64,000 bases of DNA, taken from Clostridiales bacterium. Lineage in GTDB: Bacteria > Bacillota > Clostridia > Christensenellales > Christensenellaceae. Both the position numbers and the translations under genes were made by a program. Of the stretch, positions 30,373-40,803 are shown one piece after another; position 1 is the stretch's first letter, and the number at the start of each line of letters is the position of its first letter. The stretch spans positions 1 to 64,000 of the forward strand of contig SVGZ01000005.1 in assembly GCA_015056045.1 (NCBI GenBank), read 5' to 3'. The notes under the pieces are model-generated. The model was not told the DNA's origin, searched no databases, and saw only the letters and a list, made by a program, of their open reading frames with translations.

Positions 30373-32064
30373 ATGAAATTTTCCGAAATGACCTACACAA
30401 GACCCGATATCGAAAGCCTGAAAAAGGCCGCACAGCATGCTGCGGAAGCGCTCGCAAAGGCGGCATCTGCAGAAGAACAGATTGCGATCTACCGTGCCTT
30501 TGAAAAGGAATCGAACACCGTTGAAACGATGGCAACGCTCGCATACATCCGCCATACAATCAACACGAAAGATGAATTTTATGAAAAAGAGCAGGATTGG
30601 CTCGATGAGATCATGCCCGAACTCGAAGAGCTTAACCAAATGGTGAGCCTTGCGATCTTAGCTTCCCCGTTCAGGGCTGAACTCGAAGCGGAATTCGGCA
30701 GCATCCTTTTCACCAATATGGAAATCGCCGTCCGCAGCTTCAAACCCGAACTCATGCCGCTGATGGCAGAAGAAAACAGACTCTCCAGCGAATATCAGAA
30801 GCTCTATGCTTCCGCAATGGTCGAATTTGACGGCAAAACCATGCCTTTGCCGATGCTCGGACCCTATAAACAGAGTACAGACAGAGCCATCCGCAAAGCT
30901 GCATACGAAACAGAAGGCAGATTTTTTGATGCTCACCGCGAAGAACTCGACACGATCTATGACAAGCTCGTTCACAACCGCACCGAACAGGCAAAGCTTT
31001 TAGGTTATGAAAACTATCTGCCGCTCGGTTATGACCGCATGCAGCGCAACTGCTACGGTCCGGAAAAGATCGCCGCATTCAGAAATCAGGTCGTTTCCGA
31101 TCTCGTTCCGCTTGTTGCAAAGATCAAAAAGGATCAGCAGGAAAGACTCGGCGTTGACCATATGTATTTCTATGACGATATTATGATGTTCCCCGACGGC
31201 AACGCAAAGCCCGAAGGTACAGCAGACGATATTTTAGCCGCAGGTCTTAAAATGTATCATGATCTGAGCCCCGAAACGGCAGAATTTATCGACTTTATGT
31301 ATGAAAATGAGCTGCTCGATGTTTTATCCAAAGACGGCAAAGCACCCGGCGGTTACTGCACATCCATTCCGGATTACAAAGCACCGTTCATTTTCTCCAA
31401 CTTCAACGGAACGGCAGGCGATGTTGACGTATTGACACACGAAGCAGGTCACGCTTTTGCGGATTACCGTGCCGTCAGAAAAGACTATATCCGCCCGCTG
31501 CAGTCGCCGACGCTCGAAGCCTGCGAATGCCATTCCATGTCGATGGAATTTTTAACACAGGATCATCACAAAAACTTCTTTGGCAATGCGACAAGAAAAT
31601 ATGAGATCGGTCACTGCGAAGATGCGCTGATCTTCATTCCTTACGGCTGTCTTGTCGATGAATTCCAGCACCGTGTTTATGAAAACCCGGATATGACGCC
31701 CGAAGAAAGAAACGAACTCTGGGCAAGCCTCGAAAAGAAATTCAGGCCTTGGCTCGATTTCGGTGATCTGCCTTTCTATGGCAGAGGTGCGGGCTGGCAG
31801 AGACAGCTCCATATCTATGGTTCGCCTTTCTATTATATTGATTACTGCCTTGCGCAGACAGTCGCATTCCAGTTCTGGATCGCATCTATGGAAGACAGAA
31901 AAGCAGCTTGGGAAAAATATCTCGCCTTTACAGATCTCGGCGGAACCTTGAGCTTTGAAGACCTCGTTAAGAGCGCAGGCTTAAAAGTTCCCTATGAAGA
32001 TGGCTGCATCAAGGAGATCGGCGAAGCGATCGGCCGTTGGATCGAAGAAAATCCGCTTGCATAA
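30373..32064 (+). CDS. M3 family oligoendopeptidase (PepF type)
   Basis: A 563-residue cytoplasmic zinc metallopeptidase that degrades short peptides. The zinc motif HEAGH is at about residue 356-360 (VLTHEAGHAFADY), with the second-shell Glu supplied about 25 residues later (SPTLEACECHSMSMEFL). The helical N-terminal domain is typical of the M3B oligoendopeptidase group. The ATG has a GGAGAG site. It has its own promoter, but the adjacent gene cluster encodes an oligopeptide importer, so it may process peptides brought in by that system (inference from context). Confidence 0.93.
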   Translation: MKFSEMTYTRPDIESLKKAAQHAAEALAKAASAEEQIAIYRAFEKESNTVETMATLAYIRHTINTKDEFYEKEQDWLDEIMPELEELNQMVSLAILASPFRAELEAEFGSILFTNMEIAVRSFKPELMPLMAEENRLSSEYQKLYASAMVEFDGKTMPLPMLGPYKQSTDRAIRKAAYETEGRFFDAHREELDTIYDKLVHNRTEQAKLLGYENYLPLGYDRMQRNCYGPEKIAAFRNQVVSDLVPLVAKIKKDQQERLGVDHMYFYDDIMMFPDGNAKPEGTADDILAAGLKMYHDLSPETAEFIDFMYENELLDVLSKDGKAPGGYCTSIPDYKAPFIFSNFNGTAGDVDVLTHEAGHAFADYRAVRKDYIRPLQSPTLEACECHSMSMEFLTQDHHKNFFGNATRKYEIGHCEDALIFIPYGCLVDEFQHRVYENPDMTPEERNELWASLEKKFRPWLDFGDLPFYGRGAGWQRQLHIYGSPFYYIDYCLAQTVAFQFWIASMEDRKAAWEKYLAFTDLGGTLSFEDLVKSAGLKVPYEDGCIKEIGEAIGRWIEENPLA

Positions 32065-32894: not shown

Positions 32895-35234
32895 ATGAAT
32901 TCCAAACTCACAAAGATCCTGGCTTTCATGCTGGCTTTCGTGATGGTTCTCGGTATGTTCGTAGGCTGCACAAAGAAAGAAGAAGAACAGCCCTCCGAAA
33001 CAGTATCCGTAGAAGCTGAACCCACAGAAGCTCCGTCTGAAGAAGTCGAGGAAGAAGTTGAAGAAGAAGTTGAAGTAAACGACACACTCGTTGTTGCTTA
33101 TGACTACTTCTCCGAAAAGTTCTCTCCGTTCTTTGCAACAACATCCTATGACCAGGATGCTGCCGGCCTTACACAGGTTGGTCTGCTTCCCTCTGACCGT
33201 GAAGGTAATGTCCTTCTCAACGCAAAAGATGGCGAAGTAGTTGCTTACAACGGCACAGACTACACCTACAACGGCATTGCTAACTGCGAAATCGTTGAAA
33301 ACGCTGACGGCACAGTCACATACAAAATTGACATGCGCGACGACGTTGTCTTCTCCGATGGCACACCCTTAACAGCAAATGACGTTATCTTCACCATGTA
33401 CGTTCTCAGCGACCCGACATACGATGGTTCTTCTACACTCTATTCCCAGAAGATCCTCGGTATGGAAGCATATCGCTCCGGTATGGACACACTGTTCAAC
33501 CTGCTCTGCGCTGCTGGCCGCGAAAACACAGATTTCACCAACTGGGATGAAGCTACACAGACAGCTTTCTGGGCTGATGTAGACCAGGCTGGCGAAAAAT
33601 TCGCTCAGGAAATCGTTGACTACTGCATCGCTGCTGGTTACGGCACAGATGTAGGCACAGCTGCTCCCGCTTGGGGCTTCGAAGTTGCTGCTGATGCTAC
33701 AGCTGCTGACTTCTTCGCTGCTATGGAAGCTAAATATGCTGGCGACCTCGCTCAGCTTTCTTCCGTAGAATCCGCAGGCACAGCTCTGTTCGATTTCATG
33801 GAAAACTATGACGCATACACAGTAGGTGTTGCAACAGGCACAGGCGCTGCAAACATCGAAGGTATCAAGAAGACAGGCGACTACTCCCTCGAAGTTACAG
33901 TAGAAGGTATTGACCCGACATTCATCTACCAGCTCGGCGTTACAGTTGCTCCGCTTCACTACTATGGTGATGCTTCCCTCTTCAATTACGAAAACAACCA
34001 GTTCGGTTTCAACAAGGGTGACCTTTCCACAGTTCGTGCAAAGACAACAACACCCCTTGGCGCTGGCCCCTACAAGTTTGTTTCTTATGAAAACAACATC
34101 ATCTCCTACGAAGCTAACGAAAATTACTTCGAAGGTGCTCCGAAGATCAAGTATCTGAAGATGCAGGGCGTTTCCACAGCTGATAAGATGACAGGTATGA
34201 CAACAGACCTGTTCGATATCACAATCCCGAACTATAACGATAACGATATCGCTGCTATCAAAGCTGCAAACTCCAACGGTGAACTCGTTGGCGATAAGAT
34301 CACGACAGTTGCTACAGACTTCCTTGGCTATGGCTACATCGGTATCTGCGCTAACACCGTTAAGGTTGGCGATGACAAAGCTTCCGACGAATCCAAGGCT
34401 CTCCGCCGCGGTCTCGCAACACTGATGGCTGTATTCCGTGAACCCGTTATTTACGCTTACTACGGCGACCGTGCTTCCATCATCCAGTACCCGATCTCCA
34501 ACACATCCTGGGCAGCTCCGAGACCGGCTGATGAAGGCTACAACCTTGCTTACTCCAAGAACGCTGCAGGCGAAGTTGTTGTTACAGCTGAAATGACACA
34601 GGACGAAAAAGTTGCTGCTGCTAAAGAAGCTGCTAAGTCCCTGTTCATTGCTGCAGGCTACACATATGATGAAGCTTCCGCTAAGTTCACAGCAGCTCCG
34701 GCTGGTGCAGACATGGCTTGGGAAATCATCATCCCCGCTGACGGTGTAGGCGATCACCCGTCATACGGTATCCTCACAGAAACCAAGAACGCTCTTAACG
34801 AAATGGGCCTCGACCTTATCATCAACGACCCGGCAGACTCCAACGAACTCTGGGATGCTCTCGATGCAGGCACATGCCAGCTTTGGGCAGCAGCTTGGGG
34901 CGCTATACCCGATCCGGATATGTATCAGGTATATCACTCCTCGAATATTGTAGGTCTGGAAGGTTCCACAGAATCCAACCACTACAGCATCCAGGATCCG
35001 GAACTCGACAAACTCATCATGACAGGCCGTTCCACAACGGACCAGGCTTTCCGTAAGGCAACTTACAAAGAAGCTCTCGAACTGATCATGAGCTGGGGCG
35101 TTGAACTCCCGACATATCAGAGACAGGAAGCTACACTGTTCTCCACAGAACGTGTTAACGTTTCTACAATCCCCGGCGATATGACACCTTACTATGGCTG
35201 GGCTGCAGAAATCCACAAACTCGAACTGAACTAA
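32895..35234 (+). CDS. Oligopeptide ABC transporter substrate-binding lipoprotein
   Basis: A 779-residue extracellular receptor of the SBP_bac_5 (OppA/DppA) family. The lipoprotein signal ends at FVGC (Cys 25). An acidic Glu/Val-rich spacer follows at about 30-60. The ligand-binding body includes VVFSDGTPLTANDVIFTM and a late YQVYHSSNIVG. It is longer than the usual 500-600 residues owing to extra segments in the first half (about residues 195-330). Codon bias (GCT, ACA, GAA, CTC) differs from neighbours and suggests very high expression. A GGGAGGAAAC site precedes the ATG. It heads a cluster of receptor, two permeases and two ATPases. Confidence 0.94.
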   Translation: MNSKLTKILAFMLAFVMVLGMFVGCTKKEEEQPSETVSVEAEPTEAPSEEVEEEVEEEVEVNDTLVVAYDYFSEKFSPFFATTSYDQDAAGLTQVGLLPSDREGNVLLNAKDGEVVAYNGTDYTYNGIANCEIVENADGTVTYKIDMRDDVVFSDGTPLTANDVIFTMYVLSDPTYDGSSTLYSQKILGMEAYRSGMDTLFNLLCAAGRENTDFTNWDEATQTAFWADVDQAGEKFAQEIVDYCIAAGYGTDVGTAAPAWGFEVAADATAADFFAAMEAKYAGDLAQLSSVESAGTALFDFMENYDAYTVGVATGTGAANIEGIKKTGDYSLEVTVEGIDPTFIYQLGVTVAPLHYYGDASLFNYENNQFGFNKGDLSTVRAKTTTPLGAGPYKFVSYENNIISYEANENYFEGAPKIKYLKMQGVSTADKMTGMTTDLFDITIPNYNDNDIAAIKAANSNGELVGDKITTVATDFLGYGYIGICANTVKVGDDKASDESKALRRGLATLMAVFREPVIYAYYGDRASIIQYPISNTSWAAPRPADEGYNLAYSKNAAGEVVVTAEMTQDEKVAAAKEAAKSLFIAAGYTYDEASAKFTAAPAGADMAWEIIIPADGVGDHPSYGILTETKNALNEMGLDLIINDPADSNELWDALDAGTCQLWAAAWGAIPDPDMYQVYHSSNIVGLEGSTESNHYSIQDPELDKLIMTGRSTTDQAFRKATYKEALELIMSWGVELPTYQRQEATLFSTERVNVSTIPGDMTPYYGWAAEIHKLELN

Positions 35235-35443: not shown

Positions 35444-36436
35444 ATGGGAAAATTTATCGTTAAGCGTCTTTTGACTTCAGTACTGATCCTGATCTGTGTC
35501 ATGCTGATCATTTACACGCTGATGCATTGCCTCCCGACGAACTATATTGAGACTATGGCGCGCCAGCTCTCGCAGCGTCCGGGCAACACCAAGTCTGCAG
35601 CGGAATGGCTGGCCGACTTAAATGCCCAATATGGTATGGACAAAGGCATCATCGGCGGATTCTTTGTCTGGCTGCAGAACGCCCTTGCGGGTGATTTTGG
35701 CATCAGCTGGGTACATAACATTCCTCCGACAGAAAAATTCATGGATGTTATCGGCGTCAGCTTCATTCTTGGCGCGATCTCTATGTTCTTTGAGATCATT
35801 ATTGCGATCCCGCTGGGTATCCTCGCTGCAAAGAAACAGTACAGCGGCATCGACTACTTCGTAACCGTATTCGCCATGATCTGTATCTCCATGCCGACCT
35901 TCTTCGTTGCAACGCTATTGAAGTTGGTATTCGGCGTGCAGCTTGGCTGGTTCGAGATCGCGGGTCTGACCTCGGCAAGGTTCTTTGATACCTTATCGCC
36001 CATGGGTCAGTTCTGGAATATGGCTTGGCATCTTGTTCTTCCGGTTATCACGATCGTCATCATCTCCATCGGCGGTCTGATGCGTTACACAAGAACAAAC
36101 ATGCTCGAAGTTATGAATGCAGACTACATCAGAACAGCAAGAGCAAAGGGTCTCCCGGAAAAAGTTGTCATCAACAAACACGCTTTCCGCAACACGCTCA
36201 TTCCGGTCGTTACCATTCTCGGCGGCAGCCTCCCGAGCCTTTTCTCCGGTGCGCTCATCACAGAACAGCTGTTCTCTATCCCCGGCATCGGCTACACAGC
36301 ATATCAGTCCATGATCGTCGGCGACATCCCCTTCACGATGTTCTATCTGACATTTATGGCGATCCTTACGCTTGTCGGCAACCTGATCGCAGACTTGCTC
36401 TATGCTGCGGTTGACCCGCGCGTACGCCTGAGCTAA
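35444..36436 (+). CDS. Oligopeptide ABC transporter permease (OppB type)
   Basis: A 330-residue membrane subunit with six helices. The N-terminal MGKFIVKRLLTSVLILICVMLIIY helix, the RYTRTNMLEVMNADYIRTARAKGLPE EAA-type loop and the late LITEQLFSIPGIGY segment are family hallmarks. It sits 209 bases after the receptor gene, beyond the structured intergenic RNA, and 12 bases before the second permease. It forms the channel with the enlarged OppC-like partner. Confidence 0.95.
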   Translation: MGKFIVKRLLTSVLILICVMLIIYTLMHCLPTNYIETMARQLSQRPGNTKSAAEWLADLNAQYGMDKGIIGGFFVWLQNALAGDFGISWVHNIPPTEKFMDVIGVSFILGAISMFFEIIIAIPLGILAAKKQYSGIDYFVTVFAMICISMPTFFVATLLKLVFGVQLGWFEIAGLTSARFFDTLSPMGQFWNMAWHLVLPVITIVIISIGGLMRYTRTNMLEVMNADYIRTARAKGLPEKVVINKHAFRNTLIPVVTILGGSLPSLFSGALITEQLFSIPGIGYTAYQSMIVGDIPFTMFYLTFMAILTLVGNLIADLLYAAVDPRVRLS

Positions 36437-36448
36437 GGAGGAAATATC

Positions 36449-38512
36449 ATGCAGAAAAGAAATTTCAACGAAGCTTTAAAGCAGCGCGAACTCCGCGAAA
36501 GAGAAGAAAATGCACGTCGTGCCGGCGAAAATGAGATGACGCTGGATGACGCTGCGCGCGTCAAGGTGCTTTCCCCGGGTATGCTCGTTTTCAAGCGTTT
36601 CATCCGCAACAAACTGGCTATTCTGGGTTCCGCGATTCTGATCGTCATGTTCCTCTTCGCTTTCCTTGGTCCCTATTTCTATCGTTACGGACAGACGGAA
36701 GTCTTCAACAAATATAAACTCCTGAACGTCAACTATGCAAACGCAGAAGAACGCAGCGAGCATACGGTTTACCCGGTTGAAGAACTCGGCATCAGCACGA
36801 ACACAAAGAATATGTTAAACTCCATCATCCTCGACATGGAAGAGTCCGGCGCTATGCAGCAGCTCTACCGTGATGAAGAGGCAAATATGGACGTTGTTGT
36901 ACAGAAACAGGGTGAAAATGTTTATACCATGTCTGTCGGCGATGCAAAGGAAGTTGGCACATATTCCCTCGAAAATATCGGTAAATTCAACACCAAGTTC
37001 GGCAAAGTTGCATTTGTCGGCGAAAACCTCGGCAATGCTTTCAACGATGCTGTTAAGACTGCGATCAATGCAAAAGCAAAGCAGTTTGATTTTAACGGTG
37101 GTACATACCTCGTTCAGCCCGGCGCAAATGACAAGGAATATATCATTTTAGGCGCAGGTGCAGGCGCAATGCAGTATAAAGGCGCAGGCATGGGCGATGC
37201 TTTCGCGGCTCTTGTTGGCGAAAATGTTCTGAACGAAGTAGATTCCTTCGAATATGAAGGCGGCCTTTATACGATCACCGCTGCAAAAGACGGTGCTTAC
37301 ACCGTTGCAGGTGTTGAAAACTTAAAGACAGCTTTCGTATCCTCGACATACGTCTTTGACGCCGTTACACCCGGCACAGAGTTCTCCAACGAATTCAAAA
37401 CAAGCGCACTTCTTGCGATCTATGACGGCGGCGAATTCACATTCGACGGCAAGACCTATACAGTTGTCAACAGCGAAGAAGAACAGAGTGTTTACGATGA
37501 AAACGGTGAACAGTATGCTGCAATCTCCACATTCGTTGTCCGCCGCTATAACGGTGAAGACAGCCTCGACCTCGCTTTCAAGGCAAAGGTTCGTGAAGTT
37601 GTAACAGAGATGGAAGCACAGAACCTTTCCAGCAGCACCTTCACATACAGCATCCCGCAGCTTGATGAAGAAGGTATGCCGGTTCTCGATGAAAACGACG
37701 AAGCAGTTCTCGTTGAATCCGAACTCACAGTCAATGACAAGGTCACAACATTTGTTGTTGTCTGTGAACAGTACACATACATGCTCAACCGCTTCGACGG
37801 CCCGACGGAAGAACATCCCTTCGGTACAGACGGCGACGGTATGGATATCCTGGCACGAATGATGGCAGGCGGCAGAGTTTCTCTGCTCGTTGGTTTCGTC
37901 GTTGTTATCCTTGAGATCATCCTCGGCGTTATCATGGGCGGTCTTGCAGGCTACTTCGGCGGCTGGGTAGACAACCTCATCATGCGAATGGTTGATATTT
38001 TCTACTGCATCCCCTCGATGCCGATCCTTATCATCCTCGGCGCAATGCTCGATGCTTTAAGGCTCGAACCCTATGTCCGCCTTATGTACCTTATGGCGGT
38101 TCTCGGCTTCCTCGGCTGGGCAAGCATCGCAAGACTCGTCCGTGGTCAGATCCTCTCGCTTCGTGAACAGGACTTCATGGTCGCAACAGAAGCAACAGGT
38201 CTCCCGGTAGGACGCAGAATTTTCAGACATCTTATTCCGAACGTTATGCCGCAGCTTATCGTTACGGCAACAATGGGTCTTGGCTCTGTTATCTTAACGG
38301 AATCCACACTTTCCTTCCTTGGCCTTGGCGTTAAGCACCCGATGGCAACATGGGGAACGATGATCAACTCCGTTGCAACAAGTGCACAGGCCATGACGGA
38401 ATACACCTACATCTGGATCCCGGTTGGCTGCCTGATCTGCCTTACCGTTATCGCCTTCAACTTCGTCGGCGACGGTTTAAGAGACGCATTCGACCCGAAG
38501 ATGAAGCGCTAA
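36449..38512 (+). CDS. OppC-type permease with large extracytoplasmic insertion
   Basis: A 687-residue permease, more than twice the usual OppC length of about 300. Residues 1-75 are the normal cytoplasmic N-terminus and first helix (NKLAILGSAILIVMFLFAFLG). The normal remainder starts at EHPFGTDGDGMDILARMM (about 455) and runs through five helices with the usual EAA loop. Between them lie about 350-380 extra residues that must face outside. They contain three similar strands, FDFNGGTYLVQP (213-224), FEYEGGLYTITA (267-278) and FTFDGKTYTVVN (330-341), each after a helix-like segment, so the insertion seems built from repeats. There is no frameshift; the gene is intact. A GGAGG site precedes the ATG. 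The insertion might contact the receptor or substrate (inference). Confidence 0.92.
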   Translation: MQKRNFNEALKQRELREREENARRAGENEMTLDDAARVKVLSPGMLVFKRFIRNKLAILGSAILIVMFLFAFLGPYFYRYGQTEVFNKYKLLNVNYANAEERSEHTVYPVEELGISTNTKNMLNSIILDMEESGAMQQLYRDEEANMDVVVQKQGENVYTMSVGDAKEVGTYSLENIGKFNTKFGKVAFVGENLGNAFNDAVKTAINAKAKQFDFNGGTYLVQPGANDKEYIILGAGAGAMQYKGAGMGDAFAALVGENVLNEVDSFEYEGGLYTITAAKDGAYTVAGVENLKTAFVSSTYVFDAVTPGTEFSNEFKTSALLAIYDGGEFTFDGKTYTVVNSEEEQSVYDENGEQYAAISTFVVRRYNGEDSLDLAFKAKVREVVTEMEAQNLSSSTFTYSIPQLDEEGMPVLDENDEAVLVESELTVNDKVTTFVVVCEQYTYMLNRFDGPTEEHPFGTDGDGMDILARMMAGGRVSLLVGFVVVILEIILGVIMGGLAGYFGGWVDNLIMRMVDIFYCIPSMPILIILGAMLDALRLEPYVRLMYLMAVLGFLGWASIARLVRGQILSLREQDFMVATEATGLPVGRRIFRHLIPNVMPQLIVTATMGLGSVILTESTLSFLGLGVKHPMATWGTMINSVATSAQAMTEYTYIWIPVGCLICLTVIAFNFVGDGLRDAFDPKMKR

Positions 38513-38527: not shown

Positions 38528-39724
38528 ATGAAGTTATTCAGTAAAAAAGACAGAAAAGAAAGCAGCTATATTTCCGCAAAAGCTTCCAGAAAGATCTCGA
38601 AGTTCAATCGTCAGCTGACAAAGAAGCTTGAAAAAGCCCGCAACGATGCAGGCAAGGATCCGGCGCTTTACACAACAAAAATGCACGATGAGAACAACGT
38701 CGTCGAATTTGACAACGTTTGCTCCTACTTCTTTACGGATATCGGCACGGTCAAGGCTGTTGACGGCGTAAGCTTCAACGTTCCCAAGTGCTCGACAGTC
38801 GGTGTCGTTGGTGAATCCGGCTGCGGTAAATCCGTAACGAGCCTTTCGCTCATGCAGCTCCTGCAGAGACCGACAGGCCAGACAGTCGGCGGTGAGATCC
38901 GCTTCAATATGGGCGATGGCACGGCACTCAATATCGTCAATACACCTACTGCAAAAATGCAGGAACTCCGCGGCAAGAGAATGTCCATGATCTTCCAGGA
39001 ACCGATGACATCTCTGAACCCGGTATTCAAAATCGGTCAGCAGGTCAACGAAGTTCTCGAGCTCCATCACCCGGAAATGACGCCGGATGAGATCAAGGCA
39101 CGTACGCTCGAAATGCTCGAAATGGTCGGCATCGCCAACAAAGAAGGCGTTTACGAAATGTATCCGCACGAACTTTCCGGCGGTATGCGCCAGCGTGTTA
39201 TGATCGCTATTGCGCTTGCCTGCACACCCGAGCTTATCATTGCAGACGAACCGACAACTGCTCTTGACGTTACCATTCAGGCGCAGATCCTCGATCTTCT
39301 CCTTGAATTAAAAGACAAGATCAATTCTTCGATCATGCTCATCACGCATGACCTCGGCGTTATCGCAAACATGGCAGACTATGTTGTCGTTATGTATGCA
39401 GGCCGCGTCATTGAAAAGGGCACAGCGGAAGATATCTTCCATAATCCCTGCCATCCTTATACGATCGGCCTCATGCGCAGCAAACCCGTCGTCGGCAAAA
39501 AGGTCGAAGAGCTCTATAACATCCCCGGCAGCGTTCCGAACCCGGTCAATATGCCCAACTACTGCTACTTCAAAGACCGCTGCGAAATGCAGTGCGAGCA
39601 TTGCAAAGGCAAGTATCCGCCGGAGATCAAGATCAGCGATACACACGTTGTATCCTGCTACCGCTACTTTGAACAGGGCGAAGTCCTTGGCTACCCGAAA
39701 ACGACAAATGTGGAGGAACTTTGA
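38528..39724 (+). CDS. Oligopeptide ABC transporter ATP-binding protein (OppD type)
   Basis: A 398-residue ATPase with Walker [10 protein letters not shown], signature LSGGMRQRV, Walker [14 protein letters not shown] and switch His LITHDLGV. An N-terminal basic extension of about 55 residues precedes the ABC domain. The C-terminal oligopeptide-transporter domain carries Cys residues (CYFKDRC...CEHC...SCY) typical of this subfamily. AAGGAGG lies before the ATG. It pairs with the next gene's product. Confidence 0.95.
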
Positions 39725-39726
39725 TA

Positions 39727-40803
39727 ATGGCTGAAGAAGTAAGAACAGGCAGCTATGCGCTCAACAGCTTTGATGGCGCAGAAAATGACCCCCAGTACCT
39801 CCTGGTAGTCAAACATTTAAAGAAATATTTCCCCATTAAGTCCAGCTTCTTCAAGAAGACCATCGGCAACGTCAAAGCTGTTGACGATATCTCTTTCAAG
39901 ATCAAGCGCGGAACCACAATGGGTCTCGTTGGCGAATCCGGCTGCGGCAAAACAACAGTCGGCAAAACCATCCTTCGACTGGTCGATAAGACAGACGGCG
40001 AAGTTTTCTTCAACGGCACAGAGATCTTTGGTCTTTCCAGGGATGAGCTCAGAAAAACACGCCCGAACATCCAGATCATCTTCCAGGATCCGTATTCCAG
40101 CCTTTCCCCGCGTCTGCCTATTGCGGAAATCATCGGTGAAGGCGTTCGCGAACACGGTATCGTTCCGAAGGAAGAACATGACGAATATGTTTCCCGCATC
40201 ATGAAGGCCTGCGGTCTGCAGGAATATCATAAGGATCGTTATCCGCATGAATTCTCCGGCGGTCAGAGACAGCGTATCTGCATCGCTCGTGCGCTCGCTT
40301 TAAACCCGGAATTCATCCTTTGCGACGAACCTGTATCTGCTCTTGACGTTTCGATCCAGGCGCAGATCATCAACCTCCTTCGTGACCTGCAGAAGGAATT
40401 CGGACTTACATACCTCTTCATTTCGCATGACCTTTCCGTTGTTGAGCATATCTCCGACACAGTCGGCGTTATGTACCTCGGCAGCATGGTTGAATATGCA
40501 CCGACAGAAAAGGTATTCGATAAGCCGATGCATCCCTATACACAGGCGCTCATTTCCGCAATTCCTGTTCCGGATCCGGATAACAAGATGGAAAGAGTCA
40601 TCCTCGAAGGCAGCATTCCTTCCCCGGCAAACCCGCCGAAAGGCTGCAAATTCCACACACGCTGCAGCAAGTGCATGGAGATCTGCAAACACTTCGCGCC
40701 CGATTTCAACGAGCTCGAACCCGATCATTTCTGCGCTTGTCACCTCTATAACTCGCCCGAAAGACAGGCTGAGCTCGAGGCACAGCTCCCGAAGGAAAAC
40801 TAA
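39727..40803 (+). CDS. Oligopeptide ABC transporter ATP-binding protein (OppF type)
   Basis: A 358-residue ATPase, the second nucleotide-binding subunit. It has Walker A GESGCGKTT, signature FSGGQRQRI, Walker B FILCDEPVSALDV, and the C-terminal Cys cluster CKFHTRCSKCMEICKHF. The frame can be read from TTG 39721, but ATG 39727 with GGAGG at about 39713 is the better start; it begins just after the OppD-type stop. The stop codon is immediately followed by the ATG of the small membrane protein. Confidence 0.95.
   Translation: MAEEVRTGSYALNSFDGAENDPQYLLVVKHLKKYFPIKSSFFKKTIGNVKAVDDISFKIKRGTTMGLVGESGCGKTTVGKTILRLVDKTDGEVFFNGTEIFGLSRDELRKTRPNIQIIFQDPYSSLSPRLPIAEIIGEGVREHGIVPKEEHDEYVSRIMKACGLQEYHKDRYPHEFSGGQRQRICIARALALNPEFILCDEPVSALDVSIQAQIINLLRDLQKEFGLTYLFISHDLSVVEHISDTVGVMYLGSMVEYAPTEKVFDKPMHPYTQALISAIPVPDPDNKMERVILEGSIPSPANPPKGCKFHTRCSKCMEICKHFAPDFNELEPDHFCACHLYNSPERQAELEAQLPKEN

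Follow-up and report, generated by a model that had tools for sequence, protein, structure and literature searches.

Relationship to described peptide importers

OppABCDF importers are treated as systems with a compact permease, in which recognition resides wholly in OppA. Structural work on peptide importers has shown that the receptor docks atop both permease subunits and that a scoop between TM1 and TM2 of DppB enters the receptor cleft (PMC12136057). This TM1–TM2 periplasmic segment is one region in which the permease subunits differ, and its counterpart in DppB contacts DppA (PMC12136057). In MalFGK2, a large permease insertion, MalF-P2, contacts the receptor MalE (PMC3150292).

The window analysed here is a 64 000-nucleotide stretch of a Clostridiales genome assembly. 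It contains one operon in which Pfam and NCBIfam identify an oppC gene beside genes for the other permease subunit, a family 5 receptor and two ATPases:

32895–35234, + strand: oppA, receptor lipoprotein of 779 aa, SBP_bac_5 (ORF and Pfam)
35444–36436, + strand: oppB, 330 aa, no large insert (ORF and Pfam)
36449–38512, + strand: oppC-like permease gene, 687 aa, intact ORF (Pfam, NCBIfam and DppC alignment)
38528–39724, + strand: oppD, ATPase (ORF, Pfam and NCBIfam)
39721–40803, + strand: oppF, ATPase (ORF, Pfam and NCBIfam)

The first-pass annotation had described oppC as an intact gene in a full operon, and this holds: the 687-aa reading frame is unbroken and oppABCDF is complete by Pfam and NCBIfam. 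A gene for an M3-family oligopeptidase (Pfam) is located just upstream, at 30373–32064. Such a peptidase suits peptide import and is likely to be a partner in peptide use.

Two Pfam domains are found in OppC, both exceeding the cut-off: OppC_N at residues 42–85 (43.5 bits) and BPD_transp_1 at residues 493–687 (96.1 bits). Pfam shows no known domain between them. When the solved DppC is used as the reference, OppC residues 45–87 align with DppC residues 20–62 and OppC residues 451–686 with DppC residues 74–299, which places about 350 extra residues in the TM1–TM2 periplasmic segment. DppC and OppC are the top Foldseek matches to the full OppC model (E about 1e-14 to 1e-12). The protein shares its permease core, operon and motifs with the Opp4C/OppC family (NCBIfam NF045476; Pfam PF00528 and PF12911), and Opp4C is its top NCBIfam model. 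However, that model has 278 positions and lacks the insert, and the score of 318.2 bits is under its curated cut-off of 350. By its domains, fold and operon, the window OppC is an OppC/DppC permease of the TCDB 3.A.1.5 type.

The insert is predicted to be an ordered array of five units

The features of OppC are as follows:

36611–36679, + strand: TM1, residues 55–77, inside OppC_N (AlphaFold2 helix and Pfam OppC_N)
36695–37795, + strand: extracytoplasmic insert, residues 83–449, 367 residues (Pfam gap, DppC alignment and AlphaFold2)
36707–36751, + strand: root strand of the insert, residues 87–101, adjoining TM1; the conserved residues F86 and Y96 are close by (AlphaFold2 and conservation)
36797–37015, + strand: predicted unit 1, residues about 117–189 (AlphaFold2 structure only)
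37034–37177, + strand: unit 2, residues about 196–243 (sequence and structure)
37196–37363, + strand: unit 3, residues about 250–305 (sequence and structure)
37388–37546, + strand: unit 4, residues about 314–366, the top module-profile match at 41.8 bits (also AlphaFold2)
37541–37561, + strand: RRYNGED motif, residues 365–371 (conservation within the window's clade)
37571–37741, + strand: predicted unit 5, residues about 375–431, a sequence-divergent cap (AlphaFold2 structure)
37748–37786, + strand: predicted final strand of the insert, residues 434–446, running back toward the membrane (AlphaFold2)
37814–38509, + strand: permease core of canonical type, residues 456–687, containing the GTDGDGMD segment (Pfam, DppC alignment and fold match)

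Pfam and the DppC alignment together place the large TM1–TM2 insertion claimed by the first-pass annotation at residues 83–449. AlphaFold2 modelled the whole of OppC (46 sequences) with a mean pLDDT of 89.0 and the insert alone (40 sequences) with a pLDDT of 94.9 and a pTM of 0.84, every residue of the insert scoring at least 70. Disorder is ruled out by the pLDDT of both models, and the prediction for the insert alone, which the annotation had called for, is ordered throughout, in agreement with a folded extracytoplasmic domain built of repeats. The model comprises five units of about 60 residues, each a helix followed by a beta-meander (helices 117–133, 196–207, 250–261, 314–323 and 375–391), framed by the long strands 87–101 and 434–446. 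In the sequence, these two membrane-ward strands lie next to TM1 and TM2, and they probably pair as a stalk.

A module profile was built iteratively on many homologues, and a second profile was made that excludes the window's clade. The insert scores 61.5 bits against the second profile, in three domains (197–237, 264–313 and 313–368), compared with a maximum of 11.7 bits among 1000 shuffles. The three repeats seen earlier are thereby recovered and are the sequence-visible share of the five predicted units.

Comparison of the insert with known families and folds

The insert matches no Pfam family (lowest E 0.54) and no sequence in the PDB. Foldseek searches of the PDB and BFVD gave no match with E < 0.001, and long alignments had TM-scores < 0.2. 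The weak matches to RseB, TbpB, a phage baseplate and Mon1–Ccz1 (E ≥ 0.01, TM < 0.2, rmsd 20–30 Å) were judged to be due to chance. No RCC1 repeats are found in the window OppC by Pfam, and we found no OppC with a domain like the insert in the open, non-subscription literature. The repeat unit looks like a domain family, and possibly a fold, not described in Pfam or the PDB; the predicted fold of the insert appears to be new relative to solved and viral structures (PDB and BFVD).

MalF-P2 resembles the insert in being a large folded extracytoplasmic domain that a type I importer carries on one of its permease subunits, beside the receptor. However, it occupies another loop of another permease, its sequence is unrelated and it is a single domain, whereas the OppC insert is made of a variable number of units. 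MalF chains match the full OppC model only, and weakly (mostly rmsd 15–20 Å); none is among the best 50 Foldseek matches of the insert alone, and homology to MalF-P2 is not supported. The scoop of E. coli DppABCDF is also a TM1–TM2 extracytoplasmic element of a peptide importer. In contrast with the 367 residues of the C-subunit insert, which is predicted to be rigid, it consists of about 30 residues of the B subunit and is helical, flexible and inserted in the receptor cleft. In GlnPQ-type importers, too, the permease covalently carries extra extracytoplasmic domains, but these are substrate-binding. The insert was considered as a fused substrate-binding domain and this was rejected: comparisons with Pfam, PDB sequences and folds showed no likeness to one, and the operon keeps its OppA.

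Distribution and unit number

A scan of named genomes gave 80 loci, mostly OppC genes with a large loop. They include the isolates Lachnospiraceae bacterium P6A3, Oribacterium parvum ACB1 and Pseudoflavonifractor capillosus as well as MAGs with the labels Christensenellaceae, Oscillospiraceae, Anaerolineaceae, Coriobacteriaceae, Treponemataceae and Cloacimonetes; where a phylum is represented by a single MAG label, contamination may be the cause. Module matches were present in 36 of the 396 genomes in a sample of relatives and in 21 of the 391 in a sample of the class. Insert lengths are stepwise (208–220, 267–282, 310–391, 420–455 and 531 residues, with one of 289 in between). The steps are of about 67 residues and the number of units runs from roughly three up to six or more; the module counts that the profile detects in homologous inserts are 3, 4 and about 5 or more. 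Insert-bearing OppC genes are found in A-B-C-D-F operons that keep their own OppA.

All of the fetched module matches from the sample of relatives were in OppC, with the exception of one free-standing protein and three weak matches in large secreted proteins. The free-standing protein (L136:6660–7754, − strand) has 365 residues, with a hydrophobic segment at the N terminus and modules that resemble the ones in the OppC insert. Its gene lies in a cluster that also encodes an L,D-transpeptidase and an FkbH-type protein and that is not an opp operon. The three large proteins are lipoprotein-like and of 885–981 aa (L133:3883–6825, L134:5367–8081 and L135:4244–6898; genomes G253, G300 and G363), and their matches to the module profile are short (E about 1e-6 to 1e-4).

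Evolution of the insert and of OppA

In a FastTree phylogeny of the permease cores, rooted at the midpoint, the insert-bearing OppCs split into two groups. The window is in a clade with five units (support 0.998), beside which a clade of short-loop OppCs is nested (support 0.91–0.98). Read from this midpoint-rooted tree, the insert was likely gained and then lost in the nested clade. The insert evolves fastest of the parts compared: at a TMD identity of 0.67, mean identities are 0.31 for the insert, 0.50 for OppA, 0.59 for OppB and 0.71 for OppD. Sequence conservation is 0.32 in the insert, compared with 0.77 in the TMD. Within the window's clade, conservation in the insert is highest at FVVRRYNGED (362–371), which is outside the module consensus, and RRYNGED is a candidate contact site on this comparison of sequences.

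The receptor had also been described as enlarged. This is correct for the window, where OppA has 779 aa and carries the following feature:

33432–33848, + strand: helical insert of OppA, residues about 180–318, about 140 residues (OppA alignment)

The enlargement does not, however, stand as specific support for a link with the OppC insert, since short-loop OppCs are accompanied by equally enlarged OppAs. The helical insert is also found beside short-loop OppCs (L099, L101 and L105) and is missing in OppAs of 564–585 aa (L089 and L098). Intact OppAs in insert-bearing operons have a median length of 785 aa, the shortest OppAs being split or truncated frames. Among intact receptors, an insert-bearing OppC implies an enlarged OppA but the converse fails. 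Enlargement was therefore rejected as a sign of co-adaptation, because the same helical insert occurs beside short-loop OppCs. A test of rate covariation between the insert and OppA likewise gave no specific signal. There is no excess of it: the partial rho given TMD, OppB and OppD is 0.17, compared with 0.24 for the insert and OppD, in pairs that are not independent.

Other domains in the same loop of OppC

The TM1–TM2 loop of OppC holds an RCC1 propeller at three loci (L013, L014 and L015), with an E of about 1e-36 for Pfam RCC1_2 and PDB matches to BLIP-II and UVR8. OppCs of this type are also encoded at L157–L175. One example is:

L014:337–2187, + strand: OppC with an RCC1 propeller, RCC1_2 in the TM1–TM2 loop

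Of 297 genomes from the window's order, 24 have a near-full-length relative of the L014 protein, and all ten of the further relatives tested have RCC1 repeats together with OppC_N and BPD_transp_1. Like the window OppC, these proteins carry a large domain of folded repeats in this loop and belong to an A-B-C-D-F operon. They differ in that the beta-propeller is a known fold, and their cores form a separate branch of the permease-core tree, which makes the propeller an independent acquisition. The RCC1-type operons that were checked still have a family 5 receptor, so the propeller does not substitute for OppA. In BLIP-II and UVR8, the RCC1 propeller is a protein-binding fold.

Large loops of a third kind, of about 200–330 residues and without a match in Pfam, occur in a separate permease lineage (L021:1489–3063, − strand; L023:769–2268, + strand; L029:1492–3270, − strand). 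The window's genome also has a second OppC, of 456 aa, on contig C16 (L111:5124–6491, − strand), in which the loop is roughly 100 residues longer; the module profile gives no match to this addition.

The propeller in another OppC lineage shows that the TM1–TM2 loop repeatedly accepts large folded domains. A broader idea, which we put forward tentatively and as more doubtful than not, is that in gut Clostridia and some other bacteria this loop is a general mounting site for interchangeable, independently acquired recognition domains (RCC1 propellers, the alpha+beta repeat fold with its variable number of units, and one or more further types). The permease as well as OppA would then decide the receptor, surface partner or peptide source.

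Proposed role of the insert

The most likely reading, to which we give a probability of about 0.5, is that the insert is a rigid platform which positions lipid-anchored OppA over the pore, by analogy with MalF-P2 and MalE. In such a type I peptide importer, the extracytoplasmic TM1–TM2 loop of OppC would carry a rigid arm made up of five alpha+beta units. The arm would stand on two long strands beside TM1 and TM2, rise next to the mouth of the pore and offer the lipid-anchored, enlarged OppA an additional docking surface. OppA might thus be held close and properly oriented during delivery, as MalE is by MalF-P2, with the cavity still sealed by the equivalent of the DppB scoop.

Position, operon context and the precedent of MalF-P2 make docking of OppA on the insert plausible. 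It is favoured because a confidently folded insert occupies the TM1–TM2 periplasmic segment, because the insert-bearing OppCs lie in A-B-C-D-F operons with enlarged OppAs and because MalF-P2, also a large permease insertion, contacts its receptor. Contact between MalF-P2 and MalE has been shown experimentally, whereas that between the insert and OppA is one that we infer. Further support comes from the RCC1 propeller, a protein-binding type of fold that fills the same loop in a lineage keeping OppA, and from conservation of the non-consensus RRYNGED in the window's clade. The weak matches of MalF chains to the full OppC model point in the same direction. Docking is weakened by the lack of excess covariation between the insert and OppA, by the much faster evolution of the insert (0.31 compared with 0.50) and by the enlarged OppAs that also accompany short-loop OppCs.

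The partner of the arm may instead be a polymer of the cell wall, a peptidase at the cell surface or a complex nearby, in which case the arm would site the importer in the envelope or near a source of peptides. Fast evolution of the insert suits a lineage-specific partner, and the secreted L136 protein shares the modules and clusters with the FkbH-type protein and L,D-transpeptidase genes outside an opp operon. However, that protein is the one clear free-standing case in the sampled genomes, the other strong module matches all being in OppC, and the insert matches no known family that binds carbohydrate or the cell wall. We consider this alternative unlikely.

The insert could also be a structural accretion that is tolerated but plays no distinct part, growing and shrinking as modules are duplicated and lost. 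The widely varying number of units, the short-loop clade nested in the tree and the low sequence conservation of the insert relative to the TMD are all in keeping with this. Nevertheless, predicted order is maintained across great divergence and across phyla, the root residues and RRYNGED are conserved, and an unrelated domain has been acquired independently at the same loop, which make accretion improbable.

That the arm itself binds peptides, adding a site of capture or selectivity ahead of OppA, is a poor prospect in our estimation. Its position above the pore would suit such a site, as would its strong acidity (net −33 in 367 residues). However, OppA is as acidic as the insert and the two acidities are correlated (rho 0.70), so that the charge looks general to these secreted proteins and was rejected as an unspecific sign of cationic-peptide capture. 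In addition, the insert is unlike any binding protein in PDB sequence or fold and insert-bearing operons retain their own OppA. Finally, although the window's assembly is fragmented (44 contigs, 80 % complete), an assembly or gene-prediction artefact is rejected with near certainty because the survey of relatives proposed by the first-pass annotation shows the same architecture in-frame in the three isolates and in dozens of independent MAGs.

What is known here is the type of permease to which OppC belongs and what is new is its extracytoplasmic domain. A common lineage of gut and rumen bacteria carries 200–530 residues of folded extracytoplasmic domain on OppC. If the arm does position OppA, the rising numbers of units would provide a natural series for probing how tethering of the receptor controls an ABC importer. 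The wider point is that the TM1–TM2 loop of OppC has acquired several unrelated folded domains.
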